Source of the DNA: Brachybacterium aquaticum
Lineage (GTDB): Bacteria; Actinomycetota; Actinomycetes; Actinomycetales; Dermabacteraceae
Reading direction: 5' to 3'
Assembly: GCF_014204755.1 (NCBI RefSeq)
Contig: NZ_JACHLZ010000001.1
Coordinates: 3,348,001 to 3,412,000 of the forward strand
DNA: 64,000 bases
Both the position numbers and the translations under genes were made by a program. Below, in pieces: positions 1 through 64,000 of this stretch; positions within the stretch are counted from its first letter, which is position 1; every line of letters begins with the position of its first letter. The notes under the pieces were generated by a model that was not told the DNA's origin, ran no database searches, and saw nothing but the letters and a program-made list of their open reading frames with translations.

Positions 1-105
1 ATGGACCGCGGCGAGATCGTCGAGCAGGGCGACCCCGAGGAGTTCTTCACCGCCCCGCGCAGCGACCGCGCGAAGGCCTTCCTCAGCAAGATCCTCGCCC
101 ACTGA
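1..105 (+). CDS. Amino-acid ABC transporter ATPase, C-terminal end only
   Basis: The window opens inside this gene; only the last 34 residues are present, ending at a TGA at 103-105. The visible segment begins MDRGEIVEQGDPEEFF and continues FTAPRSDRAKAFLSKIL, the characteristic tail of GlnQ/GluA-type ATPases of polar amino-acid importers (MD-G-IVE-G-P-E-F, then P---R---FL--IL). It would power uptake through the two permeases encoded downstream, with the lipoprotein at 253 as substrate receptor. The gene order ATPase, binding protein, permease, permease matches the gluABCD operon of Corynebacterium. The Walker motifs lie outside the window, so the family call rests on the C-terminus and on context. 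Confidence 0.85.
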   Translation: MDRGEIVEQGDPEEFFTAPRSDRAKAFLSKILAH

Positions 106-252
106 CCGGCACCCCCTGACATGCGCCCCTGACAGCGCCCCGCACCCGGCGCCCCCGTTCCCGGAGCTCGCCCCGCGCGAGCACCGCCACCAGCTCCCCA
201 CCTGTCCCTGCACCGCCGTCCCACCGGACGGCACCGAAGATCGGAGAGATCC

Positions 253-1245
253 ATGACCAGCACCAGCTTCCGCCCCGGCCGTCGGGCCATCGTCGCCGCC
301 GCGGCGACCCTGCCCCTCGTCGGCCTCGCCGCCTGCTCCTCGGACACCGGCGAGGGCCCCGACCTCGGCGGCGGTGACAGCGGCGGCGACGCCAGCGACG
401 GCGGCGGTGCGGGCGGCGACGCCTTCGCCGACGTGATCGCCTCCGGTCCCGTCGCCGCGGACGACGCCGTCGCCGCGAGCGCCTGGGCCACCGCCATCAA
501 GGACAAGGACCAGCTCATTCGCGGCGGCACCCTCGCCAACCAGGTCTTCTCCCTCGCCTCCACCTCCGGCGGCCAGCCCACCGGCTTCGACGCCGGCATC
601 ACCCAGCTGCTGGCGAAGTACATCCTGGGCGAGGGCGGCGAGGAGAAGGTCGAGTACATCGACACCACCGTCGAGACCCGCGAGACCCTCGTCCAGAACG
701 GCACCGTGGACTGCGTGATCGCGACCTACTCGATCACCCCCGAGCGTCTCGAGGTCATCAACTTCGCCGGCCCCTACTACCTCTCCGGCACCGCCATCCA
801 GGTCCGCACCGAGGATGCCGAGACCATCTCCGGCCCCGGGGACCTCACCGGTCTGAACCTGGTCACCCAGGCCAACTCCACCGGCATCCAGGCGATCGAG
901 GAGTTCGTCACCGATCCGGGCGACGTCCAGACCCTCCCGGACAACGAGTCCTGCGTCGCGGCGCTGAAGCAGGGCCGCGCCGACGCATACGTCCTGGACC
1001 AGGGCGTGCTGCTCGGCAACTCCGCCGCGGACCCCGACGTCACCGTGGTCGGCGAGCCCTTCGTCGACGACCCCTACGGCATCGGCCTGTCCCAGGACAA
1101 CGAGGACGCCCTCGACTTCGTGAACACCTTCCTCCAGGAGATCATCGACTCCGGCACCTGGGAGCAGCTCTGGACCGCCACCATCGGCCAGGTCATCGAG
1201 GGCGACGCCCCCGAGCCGCCCGTCCCCGGCGAGCTGCCCGCCTGA
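253..1245 (+). CDS. gluB: Glutamate/polar amino-acid ABC transporter binding lipoprotein
   Basis: Extracytoplasmic solute receptor of 330 residues. The N-terminus has an arginine-rich region (R10 R11), a hydrophobic stretch and a lipobox Leu-Ala-Ala-Cys with the lipidated Cys at residue 28. A Gly/Asp/Ser-rich linker runs to about residue 55, followed by a type 3 periplasmic-binding-protein fold (SBP_bac_3). Seen in the sequence are GFDAGITQLLAKYILG, the segment VDCVIATYSITPER, and FAGPYYLSG, the usual family landmarks. The ATG at 253 follows a GGAGAG ribosome-binding site at 243. It lies between the ATPase fragment and two permeases, so it belongs to one operon. Glutamate is the most likely substrate by gene order, but other acidic or polar amino acids are possible. 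Confidence 0.9.
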   Translation: MTSTSFRPGRRAIVAAAATLPLVGLAACSSDTGEGPDLGGGDSGGDASDGGGAGGDAFADVIASGPVAADDAVAASAWATAIKDKDQLIRGGTLANQVFSLASTSGGQPTGFDAGITQLLAKYILGEGGEEKVEYIDTTVETRETLVQNGTVDCVIATYSITPERLEVINFAGPYYLSGTAIQVRTEDAETISGPGDLTGLNLVTQANSTGIQAIEEFVTDPGDVQTLPDNESCVAALKQGRADAYVLDQGVLLGNSAADPDVTVVGEPFVDDPYGIGLSQDNEDALDFVNTFLQEIIDSGTWEQLWTATIGQVIEGDAPEPPVPGELPA

Positions 1246-1282
1246 TCCCTGCCACCGCCGCCAGATCCCCGCGGCGACCGGC

Positions 1283-1328
1283 GCCGACGGGGACCCCGGC
1301 CGCACCCGGCCCGGTGGTCCCCGTCGGC
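1283..1328 (+). terminator. Hairpin between binding protein and permease genes (attenuator)
   Basis: A perfect 13-bp inverted repeat pairs 1283-1295 with 1316-1328 around a 20-nt loop. The arms are GCCGACGGGGACC and its complement, so the stem is built from two opposed copies of the GCCGACGGG motif that recurs across the window. There is no U-tract. Its place between the receptor and permease genes suggests partial termination or 3'-end protection of the receptor mRNA, a common way to make receptor in excess over membrane subunits. That function is inferred. Confidence 0.6.
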
Positions 1329-1357
1329 CGTCCCCCTTCCGCACCGAGAGGTTCCAG

Positions 1358-2925: not shown

Positions 2926-3744
2926 ATGTGCCGACTGCTCGGCGTCGTCTCCCGCTTGGAGCACGCGCTGACCGAACTCGTCCCGGGCGAGCTGCCCCTG
3001 TTCACCGCGCTCTCCGAGCGCCACAAGGACGGCTGGGGCGTGGCCTCCTACCCGTCGGGCTCGGGGGCCGACGGGGGCGACGACCCGGCCCCGCTGCGGC
3101 CGCTCGTGCGGCACGGCATCGACACGGCGCTGGCCTCGAACGCCTACGGCGACGCGGTCGCGGAGGCACGCGGCGAGGTGATCGCGGTGCACCTGCGCCG
3201 CGCGAGCGTGGGCCTCGCCCTCGAGCTCGCCAACACCCACCCCTTCGTCGAGGGGGAGATGACCTTCAGCCACAACGGCCAGTTCGACCTCTCCGAGGAG
3301 CTTCGCGCGCGGATCCTCGCCCGGGGCGGCCGCACCCCGGCCGGCACGACCGACTCCGAGCTGTTCCTCTCGCTGATCACCGCGTGGGCCGACGAGCTCC
3401 CGCGGGTGGGCGGGAACCGCGACTGGGCGGGCGCGATCCAGCACGCCGCCGCCGAGCTCACGCAGCTCACCACCGAGCTGTTCGGGCGCCCGCCCGAGTC
3501 GCTGAACTGCCTGCTGACCATGCCGGGCGCCCTCGTCGCCTACGCCCAGCACGATCCCGCGCAGGCGCCCGAGGACCAGCCCGTCGAGGTGTATGACCTG
3601 CGCTGGCGCGCGGATGCCGACCGTGTGCTCGTCTCCTCGACCGGTTACCCGCAGGAGGGCTTCTCGACCCTCGCGCAGGGCGCGGCGCTGACCATCCACC
3701 GCGGCTCCCTCCGGGTCGAGGAGCACGCGCCGCTCACGGGCTGA
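2926..3744 (+). CDS. Class II glutamine amidotransferase (YafJ-like)
   Basis: 272-residue protein beginning MCRLLG, so a nucleophilic Cys2 becomes N-terminal after Met removal, as in Ntn-type class II glutamine amidotransferases. Further landmarks are HKDGWGVASY, VIAVHLRRASVGL, NTHPF and FSHNGQFD, which match the YafJ/EgtC/DUG3 group. These enzymes hydrolyse glutamine-like amides; the physiological substrate of this subgroup is mostly unknown. The ATG follows AGAGAAGGAC. It is 39 bp behind gluD and could be co-transcribed with the glutamate importer, so a role in glutamine or gamma-glutamyl handling is an attractive inference. The segment GSGADGGDD near residue 48 carries one copy of the window-wide GCCGACGGG motif in frame. 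Confidence 0.85.
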   Translation: MCRLLGVVSRLEHALTELVPGELPLFTALSERHKDGWGVASYPSGSGADGGDDPAPLRPLVRHGIDTALASNAYGDAVAEARGEVIAVHLRRASVGLALELANTHPFVEGEMTFSHNGQFDLSEELRARILARGGRTPAGTTDSELFLSLITAWADELPRVGGNRDWAGAIQHAAAELTQLTTELFGRPPESLNCLLTMPGALVAYAQHDPAQAPEDQPVEVYDLRWRADADRVLVSSTGYPQEGFSTLAQGAALTIHRGSLRVEEHAPLTG

Positions 3745-3891: not shown

Positions 3892-4794
3892 GTGATCGGT
3901 TTCGAGAACGTCCGCAAGGAGTACCCCGGCGGTACTGTCGCCGTGGAGGACTTCTCCCTCGACATCGCCTCCCACGAGGCGGTGGCGCTGGTGGGCACCT
4001 CGGGCTCGGGCAAGACCACGCTCATGCGCATGGTCAACCGCATGGTCGACCCCACCTCCGGCCGCGTCCACATCGACGGCGAGGACGTCGCCGGGATGGA
4101 TCCCGTGCAGCTGCGGCGCTCGATCGGCTACGTCATGCAGGCCTCCGGGCTGCTCCCGCACCGCACCGTGCTGGACAACATCACCACCGTCCCGGTGCTG
4201 CGCGGCACCTCCAAGGCCGCTGCGCGCGAGCGGGCCCGGGAGCTCATGGCTACCGTGGGCCTGGCCGAGGAGCTCGCGACCCGCTACCCGGCCCAGCTCT
4301 CCGGCGGCCAGCAGCAGCGGGTCGGGGTGGCCCGCGGCCTCGCCGCCGACCCGAACATCCTGCTGATGGACGAGCCCTTCGGCGCCGTCGACCCGATCGT
4401 GCGCGACGAGCTCCAGGGCGAGCTGCAGCGCCTCCAGCGCGAGCTGAAGAAGACGATCGTGTTCGTCACCCACGACATCGACGAGGCCTTCCGCATCGGC
4501 GACCGCGTGGTCATCCTCCGCCCCGGGGGGATCATCGCCCAGGTCGGCACCCCGCAGGAGATCCTCGCCGACCCCGCCGACGACTTCGCCGCCTCCTTCG
4601 TGGGCGCCGACCGCGGCGCCCGCACCCTCCACGTCGAGCACGTCGACGGGCGCGACATCGTCGTCGACGCCGACGGCCGCGCCGCCGGGGTGCTGCAGGG
4701 CGGGCCGACGGGCGCGGGTGGGAGCGCCGGCGCGGGCAACGGGCGGCCGACGGGCGGGCCAGGGAGCCGGCCGACGGGGCAGGGCGCCGCGTGA
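3892..4794 (+). CDS. opuCA: Osmoprotectant (glycine betaine/choline) ABC transporter ATPase
   Basis: Cytoplasmic ATPase of 300 residues. Walker A GTSGSGKT is at residues 35-42, the signature is LSGGQQQRVGVARGLA, Walker B is NILLMDEPFGAVDP, and the H-loop is VFVTHDIDEAF. These fit the OpuCA/ProV subfamily. GTG 3892 was preferred to an upstream in-frame GTG at 3841 because homologues start at the IGFENV segment and GGGAGG precedes it. Unlike many OpuCA proteins there is no clear tandem CBS pair; after the ATPase core only a short segment and a Gly/Pro-rich tail follow. The tail (about 4700-4790) holds three copies of the GCCGACGGG motif. Overlaps the next gene by GTGA. Confidence 0.9.
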   Translation: MIGFENVRKEYPGGTVAVEDFSLDIASHEAVALVGTSGSGKTTLMRMVNRMVDPTSGRVHIDGEDVAGMDPVQLRRSIGYVMQASGLLPHRTVLDNITTVPVLRGTSKAAARERARELMATVGLAEELATRYPAQLSGGQQQRVGVARGLAADPNILLMDEPFGAVDPIVRDELQGELQRLQRELKKTIVFVTHDIDEAFRIGDRVVILRPGGIIAQVGTPQEILADPADDFAASFVGADRGARTLHVEHVDGRDIVVDADGRAAGVLQGGPTGAGGSAGAGNGRPTGGPGSRPTGQGAA

Positions 4795-6115: not shown

Positions 6116-6221
6116 CGGGGCGGGGCCCGTCCGTATCCCACCCCGCCTGCATCCCAGCCCGCCCCCACCTGCCAGCCCGCACGCCTACCCTGATCCCGTC
6201 GGCCGACCCCAGGAGAACCCC

Positions 6222-10785: not shown

Positions 10786-10949
10786 GGGTGTCTCCTTCGA
10801 GGCAGGGGAGGGGTGGGGCCGGTCGGCCCCGGGATGGGTGGGAGTAAGAGGTTCGGGGGCGGCCGCCGGGAGCTGGGCCGATGGATGAGGAGCGAGGAGG
10901 CGTGGGGCCGGGTGCGGCCGACGGGGCGTTCCGCGGGCCGCACCTGCGC

Positions 10950-12329: not shown

Positions 12330-12400
12330 GGATGCTCCTGTCTTCCTCGAGCGTCGATGGTCGAGGGATGCCGGGACGCCTGAACCGCACGACGTCGAGT

Positions 12401-12430
12401 GTTGCATTCAAGTCAACTGCGTTGCATTGA
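12401..12430 (-). promoter_or_regulatory. Direct repeats upstream of the transporter gene, candidate IclR site
   Basis: GTTGCATTCA at 12401-12410 and GTTGCATTGA at 12421-12430 lie exactly 20 bp apart, two helical turns, so a protein could bind both on one face. A minus-strand TTGACT (12412-12417) between them could be a -35 element. The block is markedly AT-richer than its surroundings. Assignment to the local IclR regulator is inferred from position only. Confidence 0.45.
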
Positions 12431-12534
12431 GTGTGACGAGTGTTCGGCGTCACGTCAAGGGGGCCAGGCGAAGCGTCGGAACAGACTGCTCAGTAGGTGG
12501 TGACGAGGCGAGCAGTCCGGTGTCAGCATTGGCC

Positions 12535-14538: not shown

Positions 14539-14568
14539 TAGCCGCCGGGCGCCGAAGAGCCGCCCCGC

Positions 14569-15447: not shown

Positions 15448-15476
15448 TTGACGGCCGACGGGGGCCAGCCTACTGT
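15448..15476 (+). promoter_or_regulatory. sox operon promoter (-35/-10)
   Basis: TTGACG at 15448-15453, a 17-bp spacer, and TACTGT at 15471-15476 match the actinobacterial housekeeping promoter pattern well. The spacer itself contains a GCCGACGGG motif. Predicted transcription start is about 15482, immediately before the palindromic operator and about 95 bp ahead of soxB. Confidence 0.65.
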
Positions 15477-21059: not shown

Positions 21060-21075
21060 CCCGTCGGCCGACGGG
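21060..21075. repeat. 16-bp perfect palindrome of the iterated motif
   Basis: CCCGTCGGCCGACGGG, two GCCGACGGG motifs fused head to head and sharing the GGCC centre. It sits between the sox terminator and the next gene, where a further near-match (GCAGACGGGGG) also occurs at about 21048. Confidence 0.8.
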
Positions 21076-33403: not shown

Positions 33404-33411
33404 GGAACCAG

Positions 33412-42764: not shown

Positions 42765-42844
42765 GTCGACGGGGCACGCAGCCGACGGGGCACGCAGCCG
42801 ACGGGGCTCCCGGCCGACGGGATCTGCGGCCGACGGGATCCGCG
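42765..42844. repeat. Five 16-bp tandem repeats of the iterated motif
   Basis: Units of exactly 16 bp start at 42765, 42781, 42797, 42813 and 42829. Each begins GYCGACGGG and varies in its last seven bases. Two shorter 12-bp units (ACGGGATCCGCG type) follow to about 42868. The array fills the intergenic region between two divergent membrane-protein genes. Confidence 0.85.
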
Positions 42845-48655: not shown

Positions 48656-49585
48656 ATGAACACGCAGACGGACACGCCGTCAACCCACCGCGCCCGACTG
48701 CGCACGCTGCTCGGCATCGCCGAAGGGCCCGCCGGCGGCTCTCGTCTCGAGGGCATGCCCGAGACCGCCCGCCCCGGCGTGCCCACTGAGGTCACCGTCC
48801 GCCCTGTGCATGGTGCCCCCATCCCTGCCCTGCTCCTTCGTCCGGACTCGGCGACGAACACCGGCGCCGCCGTCGTCCTCGTCGCCGGGCACGGCCGCGG
48901 CATCGACGACCTCGTCGCCACACACCCGGCCGACGGCTACCACGACGCCCTCGCGCACAAGCTCGTCCGTGCCGGCATGACCGTGCTGTGCCCGGAGATG
49001 ATCAGCTTCGGCCGGCGCCGCGTCCCCCGTCGGCCGGGCGAGGCACCCTACGAGGAGGCCGAGAACTCCTGCGGCATCGACGCGGCCCGGTACCTGCTGC
49101 ACGGCCGGCCCGTGATGGGGGCGCGCGTGGCCGATGCCCAGGCCGCCGCCCAGGCCCTGGCCAGGGTCCCGGGTGTGGATCCGCAGCGGATCGCCGTCGT
49201 CGGCGGCTCCGGCGGGGGAGCGGTCGCGCTGATGCTCGCCGCACTCGACACCACGATCGCCGCCGCGCTGGTCGCGAACTACTTCTCGAGCTTCGCCGCC
49301 AGCATCGCCGCGATCCGGCACTGCCCCTGCAACATCGTCCCCGGCCTCCTGCCGGACCTCGAGATGGTCGACATCGCGTCTCTCATCGCGCCCCGCGCCC
49401 TCGTGCTCGAGGCGGGGGAGCGGGACCCGATCTTCCCGATCGCTGCGACCCGCGAGGCGCACCGTGCGCTCGGCCCGGTCTGGGAGGCATGGCACGCTCC
49501 CGCCCCGGAGCTCGTGGTCACCGAGGGCGGCCATGCCTTCCGCGCCGAGCGCTCCCTCGAGCTGCTCGCCGCCCGGCTCGCCTGA
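48656..49585 (+). CDS. Alpha/beta hydrolase (acetyl-xylan-esterase/DLH-like)
   Basis: 309 residues without a signal peptide. The nucleophile elbow is VVGGSGGGAVALMLAAL (Gly-x-Ser-x-Gly), with the acid in EAGERDPIFPI and the histidine in VVTEGGHAFRAERS. GAAVVLVAGHGRGIDDLVAT precedes. It resembles cytosolic esterases found near glycosidase genes. It lies 40 bp after the GH51 gene, probably in one operon, and may deacylate arabinoxylan fragments; that substrate is inferred. Confidence 0.85.
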   Translation: MNTQTDTPSTHRARLRTLLGIAEGPAGGSRLEGMPETARPGVPTEVTVRPVHGAPIPALLLRPDSATNTGAAVVLVAGHGRGIDDLVATHPADGYHDALAHKLVRAGMTVLCPEMISFGRRRVPRRPGEAPYEEAENSCGIDAARYLLHGRPVMGARVADAQAAAQALARVPGVDPQRIAVVGGSGGGAVALMLAALDTTIAAALVANYFSSFAASIAAIRHCPCNIVPGLLPDLEMVDIASLIAPRALVLEAGERDPIFPIAATREAHRALGPVWEAWHAPAPELVVTEGGHAFRAERSLELLAARLA

Positions 49586-49822
49586 TCCCTGCCACCGCCC
49601 CGCACCCTGTCAACGTGACAAGATCGCGGATCTCGCTCGGGGGTATGGGGTGAAGGCCACTTCCTGACGTACGGTGAGTGCCGTGCACGCTGCTGCACCT
49701 CCGCCAGGCTGTCCAGCGGCGCGCCGGACCGACAGGGTCCGGGTGCCAGGGCGCTCGCCGAGGGACGCGCGCGGCACGCTGAGACCTCAGTCCATGTCCC
49801 TTCGACGATTGTGAAGACCCCT

Positions 49823-51511
49823 ATGCCTGTTGCGCACCGCAACGACCTGAACGCACCCCAGCGCCTGCCCAAGAAGGGCCTGCGCATCACCCCCCTCGGC
49901 GGCCTGGGGGAGGTGGGCCGCAACATGACCGTCTTCGAGCACAACGGCAAGCTGCTGATCGTGGACATCGGCGTGCTGTTCCCCGAGGACCACCAGCCCG
50001 GCATCGACGTGATCCTGCCGGACTTCACCTCGATCCGCGACCGCCTCGACGACATCGTCGGCATCGTGCTCACCCACGGCCACGAGGACCACATCGGCGG
50101 CGTGCCCTACCTCCTCAAGGAGCGCGCGGACATCCCGCTGTACGGCTCGGAGCTGACGCTGGCGTTCATCGCGGCCAAGCTCAAGGAGCACCGCATCACC
50201 CCGAAGCTCATGCAGGTCAAGGCCGGGGACCGCCAGCAGGCCGGTCCCTTCGACCTCGAGTTCGTGGCGGTGAACCACTCGATCCCGGACGCGCTGGCGG
50301 TCTTCCTCCGCACCTCCGCCGGCACCGTGCTGCACACCGGCGACTTCAAGATGGACCAGTTCCCGCTGGACGGCCGGATCACCGACCTGCGCGCCTTCGC
50401 CCGCCTGGGCGAGGAGGGTGTGGACGTGTTCCTCACCGACTCCACCAACGCCGAGGTCCCCGGCTTCACCATGTCGGAGCGGGACCTCACTCCTGCGATC
50501 GACCGCGTCTTCGCGACCTCGCCGCGACGCATCATCGTCTCGAGCTTCGCTAGCCACGTGCACCGCATCCAGCAGGTCATCGACGCCGCCCACGCCAACG
50601 GCCGCAAGGTCGCCTTCGTCGGCCGCTCGATGGTGCGCAACATGAAGATCGCCCGCGAGCTCGGCTACCTGTCGATCCCCAAGGGCGTCGTCGTCGACTT
50701 CCGCAAGATCCAGTCGATGCCCGACAACAAGATCACCCTGATCTGCACCGGCTCCCAGGGCGAGCCGATGGCGGCGCTGGCCCGCATGGCCAACGGCGAC
50801 CACCAGATCCAGGTGGGCGAAGGCGACACCGTCCTCATGGCCTCCTCGCTGATCCCCGGCAACGAGAACGCGATCTACGGGATCATCAACAAGCTCATCG
50901 ACCTCGGCGCGAACATCGTCCACAAGGGCAACGCCAAGGTGCACGTCTCCGGCCACGCAAGCGCCGGCGAGCTCGTGTACTGCTACAACATCGTCAAGCC
51001 CAGGAACGTCATGCCGGTGCACGGCGAGTCCAAGCACCTGCACGCCAACGCCGAGCTGGCCCGCATGACCGGCGTGCCGGACGACCGCGTGGTCGTCGGC
51101 TTCGACGGCGTGGTCGTGGACCTCGTGGACGGCAAGGTCAAGGTCGCCGGAAAGGTCGACGCGGGCCTGGTCTACGTGGACGGCCAGACCATCGGCGCCG
51201 CCACCGAGGACACCCTCGCCGAGCGCCGCCTTCTCTCCGGCGGCGGCGTGGTCACCGTGGTCGCCCTCATCGACCCGAAGACCCACAAGCCGGTCGAGCC
51301 GGTCGAGTTCCTCACCAAGGGCTTCGTGCACGACAAGAAGACCTTCGAGGGCGCCTCCGCCCAGGTTGAGAAGGCTCTCGTCCAGTCGAAGGCCGACGGG
51401 ATCGACGACATCGCCGAGATCGAGAAGATCGTGGTCGACACCGTCAGCAATCACCTGCGCCGTACCTACCGCCGCGAGCCCGCGGTCATGGCAGTCGTCA
51501 TCGATTCCTGA
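49823..51511 (+). CDS. rnj: Ribonuclease J
   Basis: 562 residues from ATG 49823; GTG 49811 in frame is an alternative and neither has a clear ribosome-binding site. The metallo-beta-lactamase motif is His85-x-His87-x-Asp89-His90 in LTHGHEDHIGG. The beta-CASP parts follow: IIVSSFASHVHRIQQVIDAA, ICTGSQGEPMAALARMANGD and VHVSGHASAGELVYCYNIVK with MPVHGESKHLHANAELA. It combines endo- and 5'-exonuclease activity in mRNA decay and rRNA processing. Many actinobacteria keep it next to dapA; that neighbour is missing here. Confidence 0.96.
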   Translation: MPVAHRNDLNAPQRLPKKGLRITPLGGLGEVGRNMTVFEHNGKLLIVDIGVLFPEDHQPGIDVILPDFTSIRDRLDDIVGIVLTHGHEDHIGGVPYLLKERADIPLYGSELTLAFIAAKLKEHRITPKLMQVKAGDRQQAGPFDLEFVAVNHSIPDALAVFLRTSAGTVLHTGDFKMDQFPLDGRITDLRAFARLGEEGVDVFLTDSTNAEVPGFTMSERDLTPAIDRVFATSPRRIIVSSFASHVHRIQQVIDAAHANGRKVAFVGRSMVRNMKIARELGYLSIPKGVVVDFRKIQSMPDNKITLICTGSQGEPMAALARMANGDHQIQVGEGDTVLMASSLIPGNENAIYGIINKLIDLGANIVHKGNAKVHVSGHASAGELVYCYNIVKPRNVMPVHGESKHLHANAELARMTGVPDDRVVVGFDGVVVDLVDGKVKVAGKVDAGLVYVDGQTIGAATEDTLAERRLLSGGGVVTVVALIDPKTHKPVEPVEFLTKGFVHDKKTFEGASAQVEKALVQSKADGIDDIAEIEKIVVDTVSNHLRRTYRREPAVMAVVIDS

Positions 51512-52262: not shown

Positions 52263-53786
52263 TCACTGGTAGGACACGAACCAGGGCCGCGGCTCCAGCG
52301 CGTAGGTCTCCTCGGGGGTGAACATCGGGGTGTCCTCGTCGATGAAGTTCTTCCACGCCATGAAGATCCCGCCGGGCAGGTCCCTCTGCAGCGCTTCCCA
52401 GGTCGCCATCTTGTCCCCGGGATTGCCGTGCCCGTCCGCGTGCAGGGTGATCGCGAGCTCGGGGCGGGAGGTGTCCACGTCCTGCCGGTCGGAGATCATG
52501 CGCAGGTTGAACTGGTGCAGGATCAGCACCTTCTGCGGCAGGCCGTTCTGGGCGGTGAGGTCGGCGAGCCAGGTGATGACCTCGTTGATCTCCGCGGCGG
52601 GGACCGAGCCGATCTGGACCATGTGCCGCTGGCCGGGCTTCAGCCGCCACTCGGGATCCAGGGCCAGGCCCACGTGCGGGTTCAGCAGCAGCTCCTCGTA
52701 CTTCTTGGCCTGGTCGAGGAAGTGGGTGGTGCCGGGCTGGAGGTCGAGGACCACGTACACCCCGGCCTCGCCGGCTGCGTCCACCCACTCGCGCAGGCCG
52801 TCGATGCCGAGCTCGGTCGAGTAGTCCCCGTCGGCCCCCGCGGCGGCCGACGCGACCGTCGTGATGATCTCGAACGCCGGGATCACCTGCTCGTCGGAGA
52901 ACTCCTCGTAGTCCGCGGCCATCTGCTTCACGCGCTCGATGGTCTCCTCGAGGCCCTGCTCGCCGAGGATGCCGAGGGAGGGGGTGTGCGGGGTGCCGTA
53001 CGCGGCGATCATGCGCCGGCCGGGGAAGGCGGTGATCCCGCCGCCGGGCAGCTCGGAGGTCGTGGTGGTCACCCGCGAGACCACGGACGGGAACACGTCG
53101 GAGCCGCCGAAGGTGTCGCCGAGGGCGAGCACCCCGTGGGTGGGGTCCTCGGTCGCGGCGTCGCGCACGACGGCGACGGAGTCGCTGGTGCGGCCGACGT
53201 CCCCGCCCGGCGCCTCGGCGACGGTTCCGCCGACGGCGGTGATGACCGCGGTCGCGAGGCCCTGCGCGGGCACCTCCTGGTCGGGGTCGAGGAACAGGGC
53301 CACGGGCACCTGATGGCCGTCGCCCTCGACGTCGGGCAGGCCGGGCTCCTCGGCGGTCAGGTCGATCTCGGTGATCTCACGGTCTCCGGCGAGGTCGCCG
53401 AGGTCGGTGCCGGCCGACGTGATCAGGGTGCCGGCCCCCAGCCGGTCCAGCTCCTCACCGACCGCGCCGCCCGTGCCGATGAGCAGAGGTAGCGGGAGGG
53501 ACTGCCCGTCCAGCAGCGACAGGAAGGCGTCCAGGTCGGCCTCGGGGGTCACGATCGCGGCGTCGGCCGAGGCGTACAGGGCGGCGCTGAGCGCGACCGA
53601 GGTCGCGGTGAGCTCGTCACCCGGCAGCACGGCGGTGGCGGGCGGGTCCGCCACCAGATCCACGCCGATCCCGCCCCCGTCACCGTCGTCGGTGCAGGCG
53701 GCGAGGGCGCCCGCGAGGGCGAGGACGGTGGCGCCTGCGAAGGTCCTGCGGGTCACCCGGAACGGTCCGCTGCGTGCTGCTGTCAT
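52263..53786 (-). CDS. Large lipoprotein with barrel-like C-terminal domain, function unknown
   Basis: 507 residues from ATG 53786. An Arg-rich start is followed by TFAGATVLALAGALAAC, a lipobox ending in Cys near residue 31. Residues about 40-220 are rich in Val/Thr/Asp with repeated LITSAGTDLGDLAGD-like pieces, reminiscent of cell-wall-binding repeat 2. Residues about 230-507 read like a TIM-barrel carbohydrate enzyme: GRRMIAAYGTPHTPSLGILG, AFEIITTVASAAAGADGDYS, VYVVLDLQPGTTHFLDQAKK and VGLALDPEWRLKPG. A related actinobacterial family exists but is uncharacterised as far as I know. Surface-anchored wall or polysaccharide processing is an inference. Confidence 0.8.
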   Translation of the reverse strand: MTAARSGPFRVTRRTFAGATVLALAGALAACTDDGDGGGIGVDLVADPPATAVLPGDELTATSVALSAALYASADAAIVTPEADLDAFLSLLDGQSLPLPLLIGTGGAVGEELDRLGAGTLITSAGTDLGDLAGDREITEIDLTAEEPGLPDVEGDGHQVPVALFLDPDQEVPAQGLATAVITAVGGTVAEAPGGDVGRTSDSVAVVRDAATEDPTHGVLALGDTFGGSDVFPSVVSRVTTTTSELPGGGITAFPGRRMIAAYGTPHTPSLGILGEQGLEETIERVKQMAADYEEFSDEQVIPAFEIITTVASAAAGADGDYSTELGIDGLREWVDAAGEAGVYVVLDLQPGTTHFLDQAKKYEELLLNPHVGLALDPEWRLKPGQRHMVQIGSVPAAEINEVITWLADLTAQNGLPQKVLILHQFNLRMISDRQDVDTSRPELAITLHADGHGNPGDKMATWEALQRDLPGGIFMAWKNFIDEDTPMFTPEETYALEPRPWFVSYQ

Positions 53787-53889
53787 CAGAAGGGCTCCCG
53801 TCGGCCTGCGAACTCCCTCGGTGTCCATAGTCGCAGACCCCTGCCGCGAGGGGGGGGGAGGCTCGCAGCCGGTCGGCCCGCTCGCTGCT

Positions 53890-53915: not shown

Positions 53916-54268
53916 ACATGCCGCCTCAGGCCGCGAGCGCCGCCAGGTCCACGCGCACAGGGGCGAGGTCCGTCAGCTCCACCTCGAGGGCGCAGTTCCC
54001 GTGGCGCACCCGGTGCACGCCGAGCGCGCCGGGGCCGAGAGCACGCAGGGCGAGCACCGTGACCGCGCCCTCCGACCAGGTCATGTCGACCGCGATCCCG
54101 GGCCGGGCCCGCAGCCCGCGCACGGTCCCGTCGGCCATCGCCGCAGGCAGCGCGGGCAGCAGCGCGATCTCCCCGCGATGGCTCTGGACCAGGCACTCCG
54201 CGAGCGCGGCGACGATGCCGAAGTTCCCGTCGATTCGGAACGGGGGATGTTCGGAGAACAGGCTGGGG

Positions 54269-54313: not shown

Positions 54314-55163
54314 TCCCGCTCGCCCTCGCGCTCGGCGGGGCGGAGGTACAGCTCCAGCAGTGCCTGCACCCGCTCGGGCCGGCCGAGCCGCGCCCACAGG
54401 CACGCCTTCCACACGAGCGACCAGCCGGTCGCCTCGTCCCCGCGCGCCAGCAGCGACCGCTCCGCCGCGGCCTCCTCCGCAGGGCTCGTCGCCTGCTCGC
54501 CGGGGTAGAGGAAGCCGAGGTGGGAGACGTGCCGGTGGTGCGGCTCGACCTCCGCGAGATCGTCGCGATGCCACTCGAGCACGCGCCCGTCGTCCCCGAT
54601 CCGCACCCCGGGCACGAGGCCCAGCAGGGAGGCGGCCTGCTGGACCACGGGGTCGCCCGTGCCCCCCAGCCGCTCCGCGGCGGCGATCACGTGCTCGACC
54701 GCCTCGCGCAGCGCCGGGAAGCTGCGCGCGGCGAGCTCGTCCTCCGTGGCGCCCTCGAAGCGGGACAGGGAGTCCAGCTCCCGCTCGAGCCACAGCCCGG
54801 CCACCGGCCAGCTCGCCCAGGACGCGTCCCCGCACCGGGCCGGTGTACCCCCAGGGATCGGTGTTGTGGTGCGCGGTCCAGCCGTCGGCCCCGTAGAGGC
54901 GGTGGGCGGTCTCCCGCCCGGGCTCGCGCAGCATCGCCACGAACTCCCCGGGCGCGGCGGAGGCCTCGGGGACGTGGGCGATGCCGGCGCCCCAGTGGTT
55001 CATCTCGAGGTTGATGTTCGTGGTGTAGTTCGAGGACCAGGGCGCCTCGAGCTCGGCCTTCCAGATCCCCTGCAGGGTCGCGGGCGGCAGGCCGGGACGC
55101 GACGACGCCGCCAGCAGGTAGCGGCCGTAGGCGAAGACGGTGGTGAGCTGCTCGGACTCCGGA

Positions 55164-55179
55164 GAGCCGGTGAGCCGGT
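55164..55179. repeat. 8-bp tandem duplication causing a frameshift
   Basis: GAGCCGGT at 55164-55171 is repeated at 55172-55179 and followed by a further GAGC. Eight bases are not a multiple of three, so the second copy breaks the glycosidase frame. Loss of one copy by slippage would restore the frame locally. Confidence 0.85.
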
Positions 55180-56202
55180 GAGCTGCAGCGACACCTCGTC
55201 CGTGCCGGGTGCGGGATGGGCGCGGTGCCGGGTGCGCAGCTTTTCCTCGCCGCGGGCGAGCGCGGCGGCGGCCTGAGCGCGCGCCTCGGCGAGCACAGCG
55301 CGCAGGTCCCGGTTCGGCGCCCTGCCGAGGCCCTGCCAGCTGGTCGCGATGGCGCACACGACGAGCAGCCGTTCGGCCTCGCGGCGCGCGTGCACCACGA
55401 CCGCCGCGCGCGTCGGCCCGTCTGCCGCCCAGGCGATCTTGTGCTCGTCGCGGAAGTCCGCGGCGCGGAGGTCCGACGGGACGGGCAGCACCAGGTCGAG
55501 AGCGGCCTCGTGCGCGGGGTCGGGGACACCGGCCTCGGAGTCGACGGCCCCCGCGGAGTCCAAGCCCGCGGAGACGTCGGTGCGCATCTCCTCGAGCAGC
55601 GGCGACGTCCACTCGAGCACCACGCGGTCGCCCTCGGGGCAGGGGAGGGCGTGCACCAGCACCTCGTCGGCCCGGCTGAGGAACGAGACCTGCTCGCCGT
55701 CGCTGGCGGTCACCACGTGCTCGGACCGCTCGAGGTCCAGGACGCGCTCGACCGACGGGGCCGACCCGTCGACCGCAGACTTCGCGGCGCCCGGCCCGTC
55801 GGCCGGAGAGACCGCATCGGCCGCGGAGCCCCCGTCGGCCGCAGAGTCCCCGTCGGCCGAGCCGCCCCCGCCCTCGAACCGGACCACGAGGTCCCCGAGG
55901 GGGACGTACGCCTGCGACAAGGAGGCACCGAGTCGTTCGATCTCTCGCTGGGCGCCCGCCGCGTCGCCGGACTCGAACAGGGCGCGCGAGCGGGAGAGCG
56001 CGGTCTCCGCGTCGAGGTGCGAGGTGCGGTGGGGGGCGTCGACGTCCGGGGCGCCGGACCAGAGCGTCGACTCGTTCAGCGAGAAGCGTGCCCGGGCGGG
56101 ATCGCCCCAGGCCATCGCCCCGATCCGGCCGTTACCGAGGGGAAGCGCGTCCCGCCAGCTTGTGGCCGGGCCGTATCGGCGGAGTGCGAGGGGAGAAGTC
56201 AC

Positions 56203-56517: not shown

Positions 56518-57681
56518 ATGACAGAACGCAGGATCGGGATCATCGTCAACGGCGCCACCGGGCGCATGGGCTACCGCCAGCACCTGGTGCGCTCGCTGCT
56601 CGCGATCCGCGAGCAGGGCGGGGTGGAGCTGGCCGACGGGGACCGGCTCATGCCCGACCTGCTGCTCGTCGGCCGCAACGAGGAGAAGCTGCGCGGCGTC
56701 GCCGAGAAGCACGGCCTGGCCAGCTGGACGACCGATGTCGACGAGGCGCTCGCGAACCCGGACTACGAGGTCTACGTCGACGCGCTGGTGACCAACCTCC
56801 GCGTCGCGAACCTCAAGAAGGCGATCGCCGCCGGCAAGGCGATCTGCACCGAGAAGCCCACCGCCGAGTCCTTCGAGGACGCGCTCGAGCTCGCGCGCCT
56901 GGCGAAGGAGGCCGGGGTCGTCAACGGCGTCGTCCACGACAAGCTCTACCTCCCCGGCCTGCTCAAGCTGCGCCGCCTGATCGACGCGGGCTTCTTCGGC
57001 GAGATCCTCTCCGTGCGCGGCGAGTTCGGGTACTGGGTCTACGAAGGCGACTGGCAGAGCGCCCAGCGTCCCTCCTGGAACTACCGCTCCGAGGACGGCG
57101 GCGGCATCGTCGCGGACATGTTCCCCCACTGGAACTACGTCATCGAGGAGCTGTTCGGCCGCGTCGAGGACGTCTACGCCCAGACCGCCACCCACATCGG
57201 CACCCGCTGGGACGAGAAGGGCCAGGAGTACACCGCCACCGCCGACGACGCGGCCTACGGCGTGTTCCGCCTCGAGGGCGGCACCGTGGTCCAGATGAAC
57301 TCCAGCTGGGACGTGCGCGTGCACCGCGACGAGCTGGTCGAGTTCCAGGTCGACGGCACCGAGGGCTCCGCCGTGGTGGGTCTGCACGGCGCCCGCATCC
57401 AGCCCCGCGAGGCGACGCCGAAGCCCGTGTGGAACCCCGACGTCAAGGACGGCCACGACTACCGCGCCGACTGGATCGAGGTCCCGGACAACGCCGCCCC
57501 CGACGGTTTCGACAACGGCTTCAAGGTGCAGTGGGAGGACTTCCTGCGCCACTACATCGAAGGACGTGAATACCCCTTCGACTTCCTCTCCGGCGCCCGC
57601 GGCGTGCGCCTTGCCGAGGCGGGGCTCGCCAGCTCCGCCGAGGGTCGCCGCATCACCCTCGACCCGCTGACGGAGGTGTGA
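56518..57681 (+). CDS. Gfo/Idh/MocA-family oxidoreductase
   Basis: 387 residues from ATG 56518 (MTERRIGIIVNGATGRMGYR). The N-terminal Rossmann motif is GATGRMG. The family EKP motif is in AIAAGKAICTEKPTAESFED at about residue 118, and the C-terminal domain includes ADMFPHWNYVIEELFG, giving the metal- or substrate-site histidine. Such enzymes oxidise or reduce hydroxyls of sugars or inositols with NAD(P). First of a three-gene operon with DUF993 and an isomerase; the substrate is unknown. Confidence 0.9.
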   Translation: MTERRIGIIVNGATGRMGYRQHLVRSLLAIREQGGVELADGDRLMPDLLLVGRNEEKLRGVAEKHGLASWTTDVDEALANPDYEVYVDALVTNLRVANLKKAIAAGKAICTEKPTAESFEDALELARLAKEAGVVNGVVHDKLYLPGLLKLRRLIDAGFFGEILSVRGEFGYWVYEGDWQSAQRPSWNYRSEDGGGIVADMFPHWNYVIEELFGRVEDVYAQTATHIGTRWDEKGQEYTATADDAAYGVFRLEGGTVVQMNSSWDVRVHRDELVEFQVDGTEGSAVVGLHGARIQPREATPKPVWNPDVKDGHDYRADWIEVPDNAAPDGFDNGFKVQWEDFLRHYIEGREYPFDFLSGARGVRLAEAGLASSAEGRRITLDPLTEV

Positions 57682-60316: not shown

Positions 60317-60698
60317 CGCAGCTCCTCAAGGGCCGGTGGTCGGGGCGAGGTGCCCCGTGCCGCGTTCAGCGTAGGGCCCGGGGCCGACGCTCGCACCATG
60401 GGCGAGGGGGCCGACGGGCTCGTGAGGCCTGGCGCCGCCAGCGAGGGATGCGCGGCGGACGCGGCGCGGAATCTGCAGGATCCAGGCTAGGGAGTCTGCA
60501 GAATCCGGGCTAGAAGGTCTGCAGGATCCGGGTTAGGACGTCTGCGAGATCCAGGCTAGAAGGTCTGCAGGATCCAGGTTAGGATGTCTGCAGAATCCAG
60601 CCCAGCGCATCTGATGGAGCTGGTTCACGAGGTGCGGATCGTGCGTTGCGGGTGATCTGCCTGCGCCGATGCTTCGCCATGACAGGCAGAGGGGGCAG
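60317..60698. other. 382-bp intergenic region with a tandem repeat array
   Basis: No gene is supported. It contains the divergent starts of the YCII gene and the ATPase gene, one GCCGACGGG motif at about 60409, and the 23-bp array at 60472-60609. The part after the array (60610-60690) is AT-richer and is the likely ATPase promoter zone, ending in a GAGGGGGC ribosome-binding site. Confidence 0.6.
60472..60609. repeat. Six 23-bp tandem repeats upstream of the DUF4143 ATPase
   Basis: Units start at 60472, 60495, 60518, 60541, 60564 and 60587. The consensus begins TCTGCAGGATCCRGGYTAGR and each unit carries a CTGCAG or near-match. Units differ at several positions, so the array is not brand new. 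Head-to-tail contiguity with no spacers excludes a CRISPR array. Regular 23-bp spacing (about two helical turns) could suit cooperative protein binding. Confidence 0.92.
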
Positions 60699-61976: not shown

Positions 61977-62003
61977 CTCGGCCGCCCGTGCCAGCCCGGT
62001 CGG

Positions 62004-62264
62004 TCAGCGGCTCCGGCGGGCTTCCCGCTCCCAGAGGAACCCCGTGACGCCGGCGACTGCCAGGCCGATCGCGACCACTGGCGCGAGGATCATCCCTGAC
62101 CTGTTGCGGACGTCCAGCGGATCATCGCCCGTCGCGGACGCTGCGATCGGCCCGACGACGCTGAGCGTGACGGCCACGAGCCACATCGCCACGTAGGGGA
62201 GTGGGCCGCGTGCAGGCGCGTTTCGCTCGGCGGGGGTGGTGCGGTCGGGGCCGGAATGTGTCAT
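62004..62264 (-). CDS. Small two-helix membrane protein
   Basis: 86 residues; its start overlaps the LacI stop by ATGA. Two hydrophobic helices (LPYVAMWLVAVTLSVVGPIA and MILAPVVAIGLAVAGVTGFL) flank a short polar loop, with a basic C-terminus. Not recognised. Coupled translation with a regulator gene is unusual and suggests constant co-expression. It is too short for a transporter on its own. Confidence 0.7.
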   Translation of the reverse strand: MTHSGPDRTTPAERNAPARGPLPYVAMWLVAVTLSVVGPIAASATGDDPLDVRNRSGMILAPVVAIGLAVAGVTGFLWEREARRSR

Positions 62265-63400
62265 CGCGCGGCGCTCAGTGCCGTCGACTCTCGCAGCACC
62301 ACGTCGCCGCGCACGTGCACCACGTGGGCGTTCGCCACCCCGTCGGCCGACGTGCCGTCGCCGCGCGACGGGCCCGCACCGATCGAGGAGCCCCCGTCGG
62401 CCGTGTCGTCACCGTCGGCCGACGCGCCACGACCGCCGGAGCTCTCGCGCACCCAGGCGACGGCCTGCGCGGCCATCTCCGCGAGCGGCAGGGCGATCGT
62501 CGTGAGGGACGGGTTCGCATCCGCCGCGGCGCTGACGCCGCCGAAGCCGGCGACGGCGACCTGGCCGGGCACGTCGATGCCGCGGCGTCGCAGCTCGCCG
62601 AGTGCGCCGAGGGCCATGACGTCGGCCGGGGCGAACACGCACAGCGGCAGGTCCTCGGCCGACGGGGAGTCCTCGAGGTGCTGGGCCAGGCGCGCGGCGA
62701 GCTCGAGGCCGCCCTGGCGGGTCAGCCCCGCGGCGATGCTCAGCTCAGGCTCGATCCCTGCCTCGGTGAGCGCCTTGACGAAGCCGCCGGTGCGGTCGCC
62801 GGCCGACGGGATGCCCGTGATCCCCTCGACCACGGCGAAGCGGCGGTGCCCCTCCACGATCAGCGCGTCGGCGAGCTCCTCGGCGGCCTCGGCGTTGTCC
62901 GGGGCGAGGGTCCGGCCCATCCCGAGGGACTGTCCGAGGCCCACCACGGTCCCGCCGTTGCGCTCGAAGCCCTGCAACAGCGTGCTGATCGAGGCATCCG
63001 CCTCGACGCCGTAGCGGTGCGAGCCGACGAGGATCAGCGCATCGACCTGCTGCGCGATCAGCGCCCGCAGCGCCCGGATCTCGGTGTCGATGTCACGGCC
63101 GGTCTGGGTGAGCAGCACCTGGGACTGGGTGGCGAACAGCTGCTGCTGGATCTCGCCCGCGATCGCCGCGAAGTAGGGGTCGTCGATGTTGTGGACGACC
63201 AGGCCGATCAGTCCCGAGCGGGAGCGGGCGAGGGCCTGCGCCTGGGCGTTGGGGACGTAGCCGAGCTTCGCGGCGGAGGCGCGGACCTTCTCGGCCACCT
63301 CCTTGCCCGGCACGCGGGCGGAGCCGTTGAGCACCCGGGACGCGGTGGCGAGGGACACGCCGGCGTCCTGGGCGACGTCGCTGAGGCGCACGGCGGGCAC
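62261..63400 (-). CDS. LacI-family transcriptional regulator
   Basis: 379 residues from the GTG at 63400 with AAGGAG five bases upstream; further in-frame upstream sequence covers the operator and is rejected. The HTH is VRLSDVAQDAGVSLATASRV at residues 4-23, with hinge VRASAAKLGYVPNAQAQALA. The ligand domain includes LIGLVVHNIDDPYFAAIAGE and VFAPADVMALGALGELRRRG. An Asp/Gly/Ala/Ser-rich insertion near the C-terminus (62335-62430) carries three GCCGAC-type motifs. Nested palindromes just upstream suggest autoregulation. Target operon uncertain; the Gfo/Idh operon 5 kb away is a candidate. Confidence 0.9.
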   Translation of the reverse strand: MPAVRLSDVAQDAGVSLATASRVLNGSARVPGKEVAEKVRASAAKLGYVPNAQAQALARSRSGLIGLVVHNIDDPYFAAIAGEIQQQLFATQSQVLLTQTGRDIDTEIRALRALIAQQVDALILVGSHRYGVEADASISTLLQGFERNGGTVVGLGQSLGMGRTLAPDNAEAAEELADALIVEGHRRFAVVEGITGIPSAGDRTGGFVKALTEAGIEPELSIAAGLTRQGGLELAARLAQHLEDSPSAEDLPLCVFAPADVMALGALGELRRRGIDVPGQVAVAGFGGVSAAADANPSLTTIALPLAEMAAQAVAWVRESSGGRGASADGDDTADGGSSIGAGPSRGDGTSADGVANAHVVHVRGDVVLRESTALSAAR

Positions 63401-63413
63401 GGGGACTCCTTCT

Positions 63414-63443
63414 GGGACAGCACCGGGAAACGCTGTCCCGGTG
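63414..63443. promoter_or_regulatory. Nested palindromes at the LacI promoter
   Basis: Two interlocked 8-bp inverted repeats: GGGACAGC/GCTGTCCC (63414-63421 with 63432-63439) and CACCGGGA/TCCCGGTG (63421-63428 with 63436-63443). The shared centre GGGAAACGCTGTCCC resembles a LacI-family site with central CG. It ends 14 bp upstream of the regulator's start codon. Confidence 0.55.
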
Positions 63444-63494
63444 CCGCTCAGCATAGCGTCGCGCTCCCGCCCCGCCTGGTCTTCCGTCGAGGAG

Positions 63495-64000
63495 TCACAC
63501 AGTGGTCTCCGCCGCCCGGACCCTCGGCGCCAGGGGTGGGTGTGCGTACTCGTCGCGCTTCGAGGTGCCGACGCCCATGCGGGCCATGCCCGAGGCGAGC
63601 CCGACCGCTGCGGCGACCCCGTCGACGACCGGCACGCCCAGCGAGGCGCTGAGACGGTGGCAGAGATCCGCCATCCCCGCGCAGCCGAGCACGACCACGT
63701 CGGCCTCGTCCTCCTCCACCACCGTCCGGCACCAGCCGAGGATCCGTTCGTACGCCTCGGGTCGGGTGTCCTCGAGCTCGAGGACCCCGAGCCCCGAACC
63801 GTACGCCGCGACCAGGGCGCCGTCGGCCCCGTAGCGATGCGCGATGTCCCGTGCCCGGCCGAGGGTCCGCGAGAGCGTGGTGACGATCCCGAAGGTCCGT
63901 CCGGCCAGCATGGCGACGTGCATCGCCGCCTCGGCGACGCCGATCACCGGCACATCCACGAGCTCCCGGGCGGCGTCCAGGCCCGGATCGCCGAAGCAGG
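63495..64000 (-). CDS. Asp/Glu/hydantoin racemase, start outside the window
   Basis: The C-terminal approximately 168 residues are visible; the gene continues past the right edge. The edge begins CFGDPGLDAARELVDVPVIG then VAEAA, which contains the first catalytic cysteine (Cys-Phe-Gly-Asp-Pro) of hydantoin/allantoin racemases. The second catalytic cysteine lies in ADVVVLGCAGMADLCHRLSA. GRTFGIVTTLSRTLGRARDI lies between. It interconverts stereoisomers of hydantoins, allantoin or acidic amino acids; which one cannot be told. An internal GTG at 63959 is not the true start. Confidence 0.9.
   Translation of the reverse strand, partial: CFGDPGLDAARELVDVPVIGVAEAAMHVAMLAGRTFGIVTTLSRTLGRARDIAHRYGADGALVAAYGSGLGVLELEDTRPEAYERILGWCRTVVEEDEADVVVLGCAGMADLCHRLSASLGVPVVDGVAAAVGLASGMARMGVGTSKRDEYAHPPLAPRVRAAETTV

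Follow-up and report, generated by a model that had tools for sequence, protein, structure and literature searches.

A highly iterated DNA word in Brachybacterium aquaticum with features of a DNA uptake sequence

Is the word GCCGACGGG, which recurs throughout a 64,000-nt stretch of the Brachybacterium aquaticum chromosome (hereafter, the window), more frequent than composition and codon usage allow, and what might keep it there? The original prediction put about 50 copies in the window by eye against a chance expectation of a handful, and both estimates held: we counted 56 exact copies on both strands, compared to a mean of 5.5 and a maximum of 15 in 100 dinucleotide-preserving shuffles of the window and a third-order Markov expectation of 6.9. 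Across the 3,449,336-bp chromosome, GCCGACGGG occurs 1,970 times (1,001 forward, 969 reverse), while the reversed word, used as a control, occurs 69 times (34 + 35). Our main sample of 464 kb (the window and 20 stretches of 20 kb) holds 264 sites, where a third-order Markov model predicts 45. An Rfam scan of the window returned no matches at gathering scores. Sites in the window are listed in Table 1.

Table 1 Copies of GCCGACGGG in the window, singly or grouped, with gene context where assigned.
Position	Strand	Feature
1283-1328	.	Two facing copies with a 37-bp offset between starts, possible hairpin, gene gap
3067-3075	+	Single copy
4704-4778	+	Three copies, 3' end of ABC-transporter ATPase gene (3892-4794)
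6195-6203	-	Single copy
10917-10925	+	Single copy
14854-14934	-	Four copies within GntR/FCD regulator gene (14569-15330)
15454-15462	+	Single copy
18631-18730	-	Two copies, gene with sarcosine-oxidase-alpha domains (17264-20227)
19292-19300	-	Single copy, same gene (17264-20227)
21060-21075	.	16-bp palindrome CCCGTCGGCCGACGGG, two copies sharing two bases, gene gap
21933-21941	+	Single copy
22113-22121	+	Single copy
23485-23493	-	Single copy; CCGACG conserved in 13/15 aligned relatives, full 9-mer in 1/15 (L054)
32352-32411	-	Two copies, sugar/MFS transporter gene (31704-33155)
33240-33248	+	Single copy
33353-33423	+	Array, 17-bp unit at start (33353-33395), three exact copies, extends into NUDIX gene end
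34438-34446	+	Single copy
37554-37562	-	Single copy
38881-38919	+	Array, 15-bp unit, three exact copies, gene without Pfam match (38311-39234)
40581-40619	-	Array, 15-bp unit, two exact copies, VTT-domain gene (40557-41249)
42781-42837	+	Array, 16-bp unit, four exact copies, partly dissimilar spacers, gene gap
44779-44787	-	Single copy
46085-46093	+	Single copy
47785-47793	+	Single copy
48352-48360	+	Single copy
49026-49034	-	Single copy
51392-51400	+	Single copy, RNase J-type gene (49811-51511)
52827-52835	-	Single copy
53797-53805	-	Single copy
54127-54135	-	Single copy
55795-55857	-	Array, 18-bp unit, three exact copies, gene with partial GH65 N-terminal match (55000-56115)
56632-56640	+	Single copy
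60410-60418	+	Single copy
62339-62401	-	Two copies, LacI-type regulator gene (62261-63400)
62658-62666	+	Single copy
62802-62810	+	Single copy

The original prediction named one outcome that would refute it: that codon usage and GC content, through Ala-Asp-Gly codons, suffice to produce the word. The commonest genic frame is indeed GCC-GAC-GGG, which accounts for 97 of the 200 genic sites, and the share of sites on the coding strand equals the codon expectation. However, shuffling synonymous codons within predicted genes (calls from a simple codon-score script trained on the 464-kb sample, not curated annotation) yielded 45.8 sites (sd 6.0, largest 63, n = 100) where 200 were observed. The excess was seen in all six frame/strand classes, density was higher outside predicted genes than inside (0.92 versus 0.51 per kb), and the excess is missing from the further members of the order and class that were compared. 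We therefore consider this explanation effectively ruled out. Predicted genes contain 204 of the 264 sampled sites, which are spread evenly over the deciles of gene length, with no preference for gene ends. These results demonstrate that the excess of GCCGACGGG is independent of protein coding.

The motif had also been described as orientation-biased. The G-rich strand is the coding strand at 119 of the 204 genic sites, but this is no separate signal, as codon usage alone predicts a share of 60% (binomial P = 0.57) and so accounts for the excess. With replichores drawn from an origin placed by dnaA (which lies in one of the stretches, with 3 + 3 sites) and a terminus placed by halving, the 264 sites divide into 128 leading and 136 lagging, revealing no replication-strand bias. 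KOPS and AIMS are directional, G-rich segregation words, and we rejected a word of this type because replichore orientation is absent. In gaps between genes of the same direction, the G-rich strand opposes the genes at 26 of 35 (P = 0.006).

The boundaries of the word are sharp. In the 464-kb sample, single mismatches at positions 1-7 of the 9-mer occur at 0.4-1.6 times expectation and those at positions 8-9 at 1.6-2.0 times, compared to 5.8 times for the exact word, and the consensus is weak beyond about -3 to +9. A fuller unit, approximately CGGCCGACGGGG, has 626 copies in this genome and at most 51 in each of 295 other genomes of the class. A linked-base analysis around CCGACG added little. 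In Helcobacillus and the Dermabacter-type genomes, 85% and 84% of sites have a C at a distance of ten bases from the start of CCGACG; in our genome its share is 53%, matched by another flank position, and we rejected it as a feature of all dialects. REP/BIME elements are intergenic inverted repeats of 20-40 bp, and this class was rejected on the genic location of most sites and the short consensus. Thus, the unit is a discrete, non-palindromic DNA word of 10-12 bp.

Genome comparisons indicate that the word is a family trait of Dermabacteraceae, with lineage dialects that share CCGACG. Helcobacillus DSM 23040 prefers the spelling GGCCGACGGG and carries 1,612 copies of GGCCGACGG (reversed control, 70). 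TCCGACGSTTGC has 231 and 161 copies in two genomes (controls, 2 and 1) and 0-1 in nine others; both TCCGACGSTTGC and GGCCGACGG contain CCGACG. These two genomes, G060 (labelled Helcobacillus massiliensis / 'Dermabacter indicis') and G061 (Dermabacter hominis NBRC 106157), carry the same word and are therefore both called Dermabacter-type here. Dialects and genus labels do not match throughout: G060 is one such case, and a Dermabacter-labelled MAG that spells GGCCGACGG is another. Within the genus, samples of 60-82 kb from three members (G010, G011 and G034) show no excess of the 9-mer over third-order Markov expectation. Two Micrococcus genomes carry 238 and 270 copies of GGCCGACGG (93 and 62 reversed).

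Individual copies are poorly conserved. Our copies were exact in relatives in 6.8% of comparisons and aligned to gaps in 31%, versus 18% and 6.5% for words of the same composition; these figures come from 74 site-species pairs that are not independent, because about 16 sites and 12 relatives supply them (the aligned-site survey covered 15 relatives). In the reverse direction, relatives' copies were exact in our genome in 5 of 42 comparisons and faced gaps in 5 of 42. The species compared lie far apart, with 77-85% DNA identity where they align. These alignments show that copies are gained and lost quickly.

Single copies make up 163 of the 206 site groups in the 464-kb sample. Both the 16-bp palindrome and the inverted pair that had been predicted are present, as are the arrays with 15-, 16- and 17-bp units (38864-38920, 42761-42844 and 33353-33395). 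Among 63 neighbouring pairs less than 150 bp apart, 49 are direct, 6 converging and 8 diverging, and 7 of these 8 are the overlapping palindrome. Pairs under 60 bp number 50 in our genome, versus 8.9 by chance, and direct spacings of close pairs are multiples of three in 30 of 32 cases within genes versus 2 of 11 elsewhere. (Pair counts leave out an extra own-genome set that overlaps the main sample by 16 kb, and distinct palindromes were recounted.) Thus, in this species copies also multiply as small, frame-keeping arrays. Distinct overlapping double palindromes number 8 in 646 kb of our genome and 0 in the counted samples of relatives. Close pairs, examined for a terminator role, are few in samples of other lineages. 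In D. hominis, at least three facing pairs lie 14-15 bp apart.

These arrays raise the possibility that the word is functionless, a GC-rich sequence that slips and duplicates, spreading as small tandem arrays tolerated in loops and gaps. The number of close pairs far above chance, the genic spacings in multiples of three and the rate of gaps at copies fit such an origin, as does the GntR/FCD regulator gene at 14569-15330, which one array makes 75-108 bp longer than six homologues in the genus, each with at most one copy. Single copies nevertheless predominate, Helcobacillus and B. paraconglomeratum samples show the word excess without arrays, near-miss words are hardly in excess, and relatives' copies face gaps in just the 5 of 42 comparisons given above. 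Slippage also leaves the different word of other lineages unexplained, and we regard a purely mutational origin as quite unlikely.

Four of five mobile elements examined are poor in the word. Together the five hold 4 copies, compared to 22.2 expected from genome-wide density, although a satellite in genome G014 is not depleted (2 versus 2.0). In three of the four copy-poor elements, GC content is 62-67%, below that of the chromosome. Our genome's own phage satellite, which has chromosomal GC, holds 0 copies versus 4.9 expected. Correction for local composition, which covered two of the five elements, gave 0 versus 7.9 for this satellite (P = 0.0004) and 1 versus 3.5 for the genome's AICE (P = 0.13, not significant). 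The other two tyrosine recombinases of the genome best match XerC/XerD-type models, scoring above the cut-off of the general model NF001399 and below the XerC/XerD equivalog cut-offs; their surroundings, which contain copies, were therefore counted as chromosome, outside the mobile-element count. No relatives of the satellite integrase were confirmed in IMG/VR, and a prophage survey for depletion found a capsid match in 4 of 20 genomes.

Competence genes are present as well. ComEC was found in all 16 genomes searched, and our genome carries comEA and comEC side by side plus two tad/Flp-type loci. Classical type IV pilins (PF07963) were found in 0 of 16 genomes, and a T2SSF gene pair at 288 kb was rejected as PilC because the locus is Tad-type. 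These genes do not discriminate: a Micrococcus and a Brevibacterium genome also have ComEC and T2SSF genes, yet their counts reach no more than 2.6 and 1.7 times those of the reversed word.

Of the likenesses first suggested for the motif, to HIP1 or to an uptake or segregation signal, the uptake signal fits best, given a non-palindromic 10-12-mer, dialects, four copy-poor mobile elements of five and competence genes; segregation is not supported, given the even strand split, and HIP1 is similarly abundant but a palindrome, a form that our word takes only in occasional overlapping double copies. We propose, with a probability of about 0.5, that Brachybacterium has in this word its own dialect of a DNA-uptake-sequence (DUS)-like signal of Dermabacteraceae. 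We describe the word as DUS-like and do not file it as a DUS. Under this hypothesis, a surface or pilus receptor, perhaps on a Tad/Flp-ComEA-ComEC route as in Micrococcus luteus, would bind word-bearing DNA, so that DNA from cells of the same kind would be taken up and recombined more often. Word-bearing alleles would thus be copied into neighbours more than word-free alleles (a transmission drive), copies would accumulate where proteins and gene gaps tolerate them, and dialects would track receptor changes, restricting exchange between lineages. A bolder version is tentative, and we hold it at somewhat short of even odds: Dermabacteraceae would possess a DUS system without precedent both among Actinobacteria and in acting via a Flp/Tad pilus, with CCGACG dialects and a drive that forces in-frame arrays into Brachybacterium proteins.

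Two intracellular functions have to be weighed against an uptake signal. The word could be a Chi-like recombination signal read by an AdnAB/RecBCD-type helicase-nuclease; copies would then be favoured for rescuing broken chromosomes of the species itself, whereas foreign DNA would be degraded. Chi sites are G-rich, directional, abundant in the chromosome and different between species, and a non-palindromic, G-rich, very abundant word with few copies in four of the five mobile elements would suit this role. However, Chi words are 5-8 bases long, shorter than the 10-12 here, and the leading-strand bias of E. coli Chi is missing, making this reading unlikely. Alternatively, an intracellular DNA-binding or methylating protein (for nucleoid organisation, mismatch repair or methylation) could maintain the word for some HIP1-like use in the chromosome. 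Abundance in genes and gaps, fast turnover and lineage-specific variants agree with this, and the 8 overlapping double palindromes could suit a dimeric protein. Cyanobacterial HIP1, another highly iterated short word of genes and gaps, is itself the palindrome GCGATCGC and is tied to orphan methyltransferases (PMC4390886), whereas the 1,970 copies here are directional and palindromes occasional. Scarcity in mobile elements is no requirement of this model, and we judge it improbable.

The DUS-like reading is best placed beside known systems. In the literature we found, uptake sequences belong to Neisseriaceae and Pasteurellaceae, both Gram-negative. Uptake in these families uses type IV pili. 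If our reading holds, sequence-specific sex would have arisen independently in a Gram-positive family with Tad pili, hence at least twice in evolution, and there would be a new receptor to find. It would become testable whether such words spread by benefit to the cell or by preferential copying, with dialects, fast turnover and one array-burst species comparable within a single family, and the word would offer a practical handle for Brachybacterium transformation. Among the literature matches listed, which included no bioRxiv preprints and few subscription papers, none reported this word or any actinobacterial uptake sequence. Neither tandem arrays nor overlapping palindromes are known as a hallmark of uptake sequences. 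In the Pasteurellaceae uptake signal sequence (USS), as here, the core is short and the consensus extends into its flanks, but its word is unrelated to this one. PMC2346458 describes hundreds to thousands of USS copies with reading-frame bias, and our word resembles USS in both respects but lacks a gene-end bias.

Passages on Neisseriaceae DUS describe dialects around a fixed core (PMC3630211), siting in permissive regions, absence from recently acquired genes and high conservation in place (PMC2397512). As far as these passages and PMC2346458 go, our word is alike in its many non-palindromic 10-12-mer copies, family dialects with a fixed core, permissive siting, one orientation commoner in reading frames and perhaps scarcity in acquired DNA (here in four of five elements, three of them lower in GC). 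It differs in its actinobacterial host, the lack of a ComP-type pilin among the 16 genomes searched, its arrays and its poor conservation between species; inverted terminator-type pairs, frequent in Neisseria and not required of all uptake sequences, are few. In a review (PMC6370729), the passages on 'DUS' or 'uptake sequence' deal with Neisseria only. Finally, transformation of Micrococcus luteus requires tad genes, according to PMC4322843, and our genome resembles this Flp/Tad-dependent system in carrying tad-type loci, comEA and comEC.

The 9-mer GCCGACGGG (hereafter, the word) occurred 56 times in the window, whereas dinucleotide shuffling predicted 5.5 copies and a third-order Markov model predicted 6.9. 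The original prediction of about fifty copies, far above composition, was thus borne out, and the structures it described were all present (i.e., a 16-bp palindrome, a facing pair and arrays with 15-, 16- and 17-bp units). Whole-chromosome counts strengthened this observation, as the single 3,449,336-bp contig of B. aquaticum, in which the window spans 3348001-3412000, contains 1,970 copies, with 1,001 in forward and 969 in reverse orientation, versus 69 of the reversed control (the word read backwards). Flanking bases lengthened the word to about (T/G)CGGCCGACGGG(G). Words with one mismatch were found at 0.4-1.6 times expectation for positions 1-7 and at 1.6-2.0 times for positions 8-9, compared with 5.8 times for the exact word. 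The core is thus strict and the ends are soft, a pattern like that of protein-recognised sites. In this chromosome the 12-mer CGGCCGACGGGG was present in 626 copies (control, 3), and elsewhere in at most 51 copies per genome among 295 other genomes of the class, many of them larger. A glycerol-3-phosphate-oxidase-like protein encoded in the window was 69-88% identical to Brachybacterium records.

A 464-kb sample of the chromosome (the window plus 20 further stretches) held 264 sites, 204 within predicted genes (0.51 per kb) and 60 outside them (0.92 per kb). Shuffling synonymous codons within each gene yielded 45.8 sites (SD 6.0; maximum of 100 shuffles, 63) versus 200 counted, ruling out codon usage as the source of the excess. 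All six frame/strand classes showed an excess in this comparison, demonstrating that it is real and lies at the DNA level. The G-rich strand was indeed the coding strand at 119 of the 204 genic sites, as had been noted; however, this share matches the 60% expected from shuffling (P = 0.57), and the genic orientation bias is thus a codon effect rather than a separate signal.

With dnaA at 3.13 Mb and the terminus set by halving, 128 sampled sites lay on the leading strand and 136 on the lagging strand, and copies were evenly distributed along gene length. Gaps of 12-1,500 bp held 1.73 copies per kb where the flanking genes run in the same direction, 1.22 where they converge and 0.76 where they diverge; this last, lowest value indicates that the word is not concentrated at promoters. 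At 26 of 35 sites in same-direction gaps, the G-rich strand pointed against the genes on either side (P = 0.006), opposite to the tendency within genes. The window also contains a tandem repeat and a stretch of long open frames, the latter with a Pfam match in none of three frames tested.

Comparison of window copies with 12 relatives (74 site-species pairs) revealed that the word was exactly conserved in 6.8% of pairs, whereas words of the same composition reached 18% and words 15-60 bp away reached 18.8%. It fell in alignment gaps in 31% of pairs, versus 6.5% and 11.8%, respectively, for these two sets of words. In the reverse direction, 5 of 42 aligned copies in relatives were exact in B. 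aquaticum and 5 were in gaps. Low exact conservation and frequent gaps indicate that copies are young and that, in this species, many arrive with insertions. One array lies within a GntR/FCD regulator gene whose length exceeds that of six homologues in the genus by 75-108 bp; each of these homologues has at most one copy of the 9-mer. Neighbouring sites at most 60 bp apart were also in excess in the sample (50 pairs versus 8.9 expected), and 40 of the 50 were direct. Direct spacings below 65 bp were divisible by three in 30 of 32 cases within genes versus 2 of 11 elsewhere. Duplication thus adds further copies of the word in B. aquaticum, with the reading frame acting as a filter. Spacing of the word was not fixed, and 646 kb of the chromosome held eight distinct palindromes of two overlapping copies. 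Close-pair excess was absent from samples of Helcobacillus, B. paraconglomeratum, the Brachybacterium genome G014 and pooled named Brachybacterium; some was seen in genomes G019 (5 versus 0.6) and G002 (3 versus 0.1).

Counts of the 9-mer ranged from 298 to 1,255 in 35 further genomes from the genus, 3.3-22 times the reversed control. The ratio was 0.6-3.2 for 22 genomes from the order, and the weakest genus members are thus barely distinct. Other lineages carry other spellings (e.g., TCCGACGSTTGC). GGCCGACGG was found 1,612 times in 2.6 Mb of Helcobacillus massiliensis DSM 23040 (control, 70) and 1,047 times in 2.5 Mb of a Dermabacter-labelled MAG, G064 (control, 50), versus just 121 and 130 times in two Dermabacter-type genomes (controls, 32 and 22). 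This pair comprises G060 and Dermabacter hominis NBRC 106157. De novo word counting in 122 kb of G060 uncovered a different word, TCCGACG(C/G)TTGC. Counts over whole genomes confirmed it, with 231 copies in G060 and 161 in D. hominis NBRC 106157 (controls, 2 and 1); in nine other genomes, including G064 and DSM 23040, there were 0-1 copies. CCGACG is common to the Brachybacterium, Helcobacillus and Dermabacter-type words. A C ten bases from its start was found at 85% of 48 Helcobacillus sites and 84% of 70 Dermabacter-type sites; in B. aquaticum it was found at 53%, not above another flank position. TAE3 isolates form a third branch favouring GGCCGACG, with the right side not fixed.

Labels and dialects disagree in two records: the D. 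hominis word is found in G060 (stretch L074), whose record bears the title Helcobacillus massiliensis / 'Dermabacter indicis', and GGCCGACGG is found in the Dermabacter-labelled G064 (L082). The label of G060, G064 or both may be wrong. Samples of 60-82 kb from three Brachybacterium species (B. squillarum, strain SGAir0954 and G034) had no 9-mer excess. The word is a family trait with dialects, although these three species and the label mismatches oppose a simple family-wide story. A TAE3-type repeated element at times occurs as facing pairs, and there are dense clusters of GTTTCACGTGAAAC, the parS consensus.

Coordinates of features (window positions count from its start; L numbers are sequence stretches)
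Feature	Location	Content
16-bp palindrome	window 21060-21075	
Facing pair	window 1283-1328	
Array in regulator gene	window 14854-14934	
Tandem repeat	window 60468-60600	23/46-bp repeat (TCTGCAGGATCCAGG...), upstream of DUF4143/AAA gene
Long open frames	window 12330-14568	2.2 kb, both strands; no gene predicted by codon score
GTTTCACGTGAAAC cluster, Dermabacteraceae TAE3 genome	L162:13666-14385	7 exact copies in ~0.7 kb
GTTTCACGTGAAAC cluster, G060	L159:11420-12170	4 copies in ~0.75 kb
TAE3-type repeated element	L163:7070; L164:1720-2492 and 19182; L165:5770-5845 and 18980; L077:2317	mostly starts ACGTTTGGGTGCACT, some copies then AAAACGCGGTTTAACCC
Phage satellite, B. aquaticum	897025-905590 (L216/L201)	capsid, head-tail adaptor, primase, serine integrase
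Satellite-like element, G014	1391124-1399601 (L217)	capsid, integrase-like gene
AICE-like element, B. aquaticum	406-420 kb	RepSA, FtsK-type protein, integrase with internal stop

Mobile DNA tended to be poor in the word. The B. aquaticum phage satellite, whose GC content is chromosomal (72.1%), had no copies versus 4.9 expected, and the AICE-like element (GC low, 63%) had one versus 8.0. Elements of relatives had 0 versus 2.1 (G016), 1 versus 5.3 (G028; GC 62%, ending at a contig end) and 2 versus 2.0 (G014, which departs from the trend). Pooled, the five elements held 4 copies versus 22.2 expected (P about 3e-6, with an expectation not corrected for GC). The satellite-like elements of B. aquaticum and G014 each lie beside or within a tad-type locus, which suggests an attachment site common to the two species.

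We consider an uptake-like signal the best reading of these data, with a probability of about one half. A HIP-like chromosomal word is an unlikely explanation, a Chi-like recombination signal is equally so, and a purely mutational origin is less probable than either. For an uptake-like signal, a pilus or envelope protein would read the word. In B. aquaticum, comEA adjoins comEC and there are two tad/Flp-type loci, the kind of set used by transforming Micrococcus luteus, in which transformation is reported to require the tad genes (PMC4322843). Because com and tad genes are also present in relatives without the word, this machinery permits the uptake model but does not prove it.

Among the open-access matches listed, none described this word or any uptake sequence in Actinobacteria. 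The DNA uptake sequences (DUS) of Neisseria are described as varying by dialect while keeping CTG as a fixed core (PMC3630211), as preferring one orientation in reading frames (PMC2346458), and as permissively sited, absent from recently acquired genes, highly conserved in place and often paired as terminators (PMC2397512). Unlike these, the B. aquaticum word is neither highly conserved in place nor often in terminator pairs. It is not classed as a DUS, for which uptake specificity is the defining test, yet its genomic pattern is DUS-like: a discrete, directional word, in excess where proteins permit, with lineage dialects, fast turnover and a tendency to be scarce in newcomers, is as a DUS predicts.
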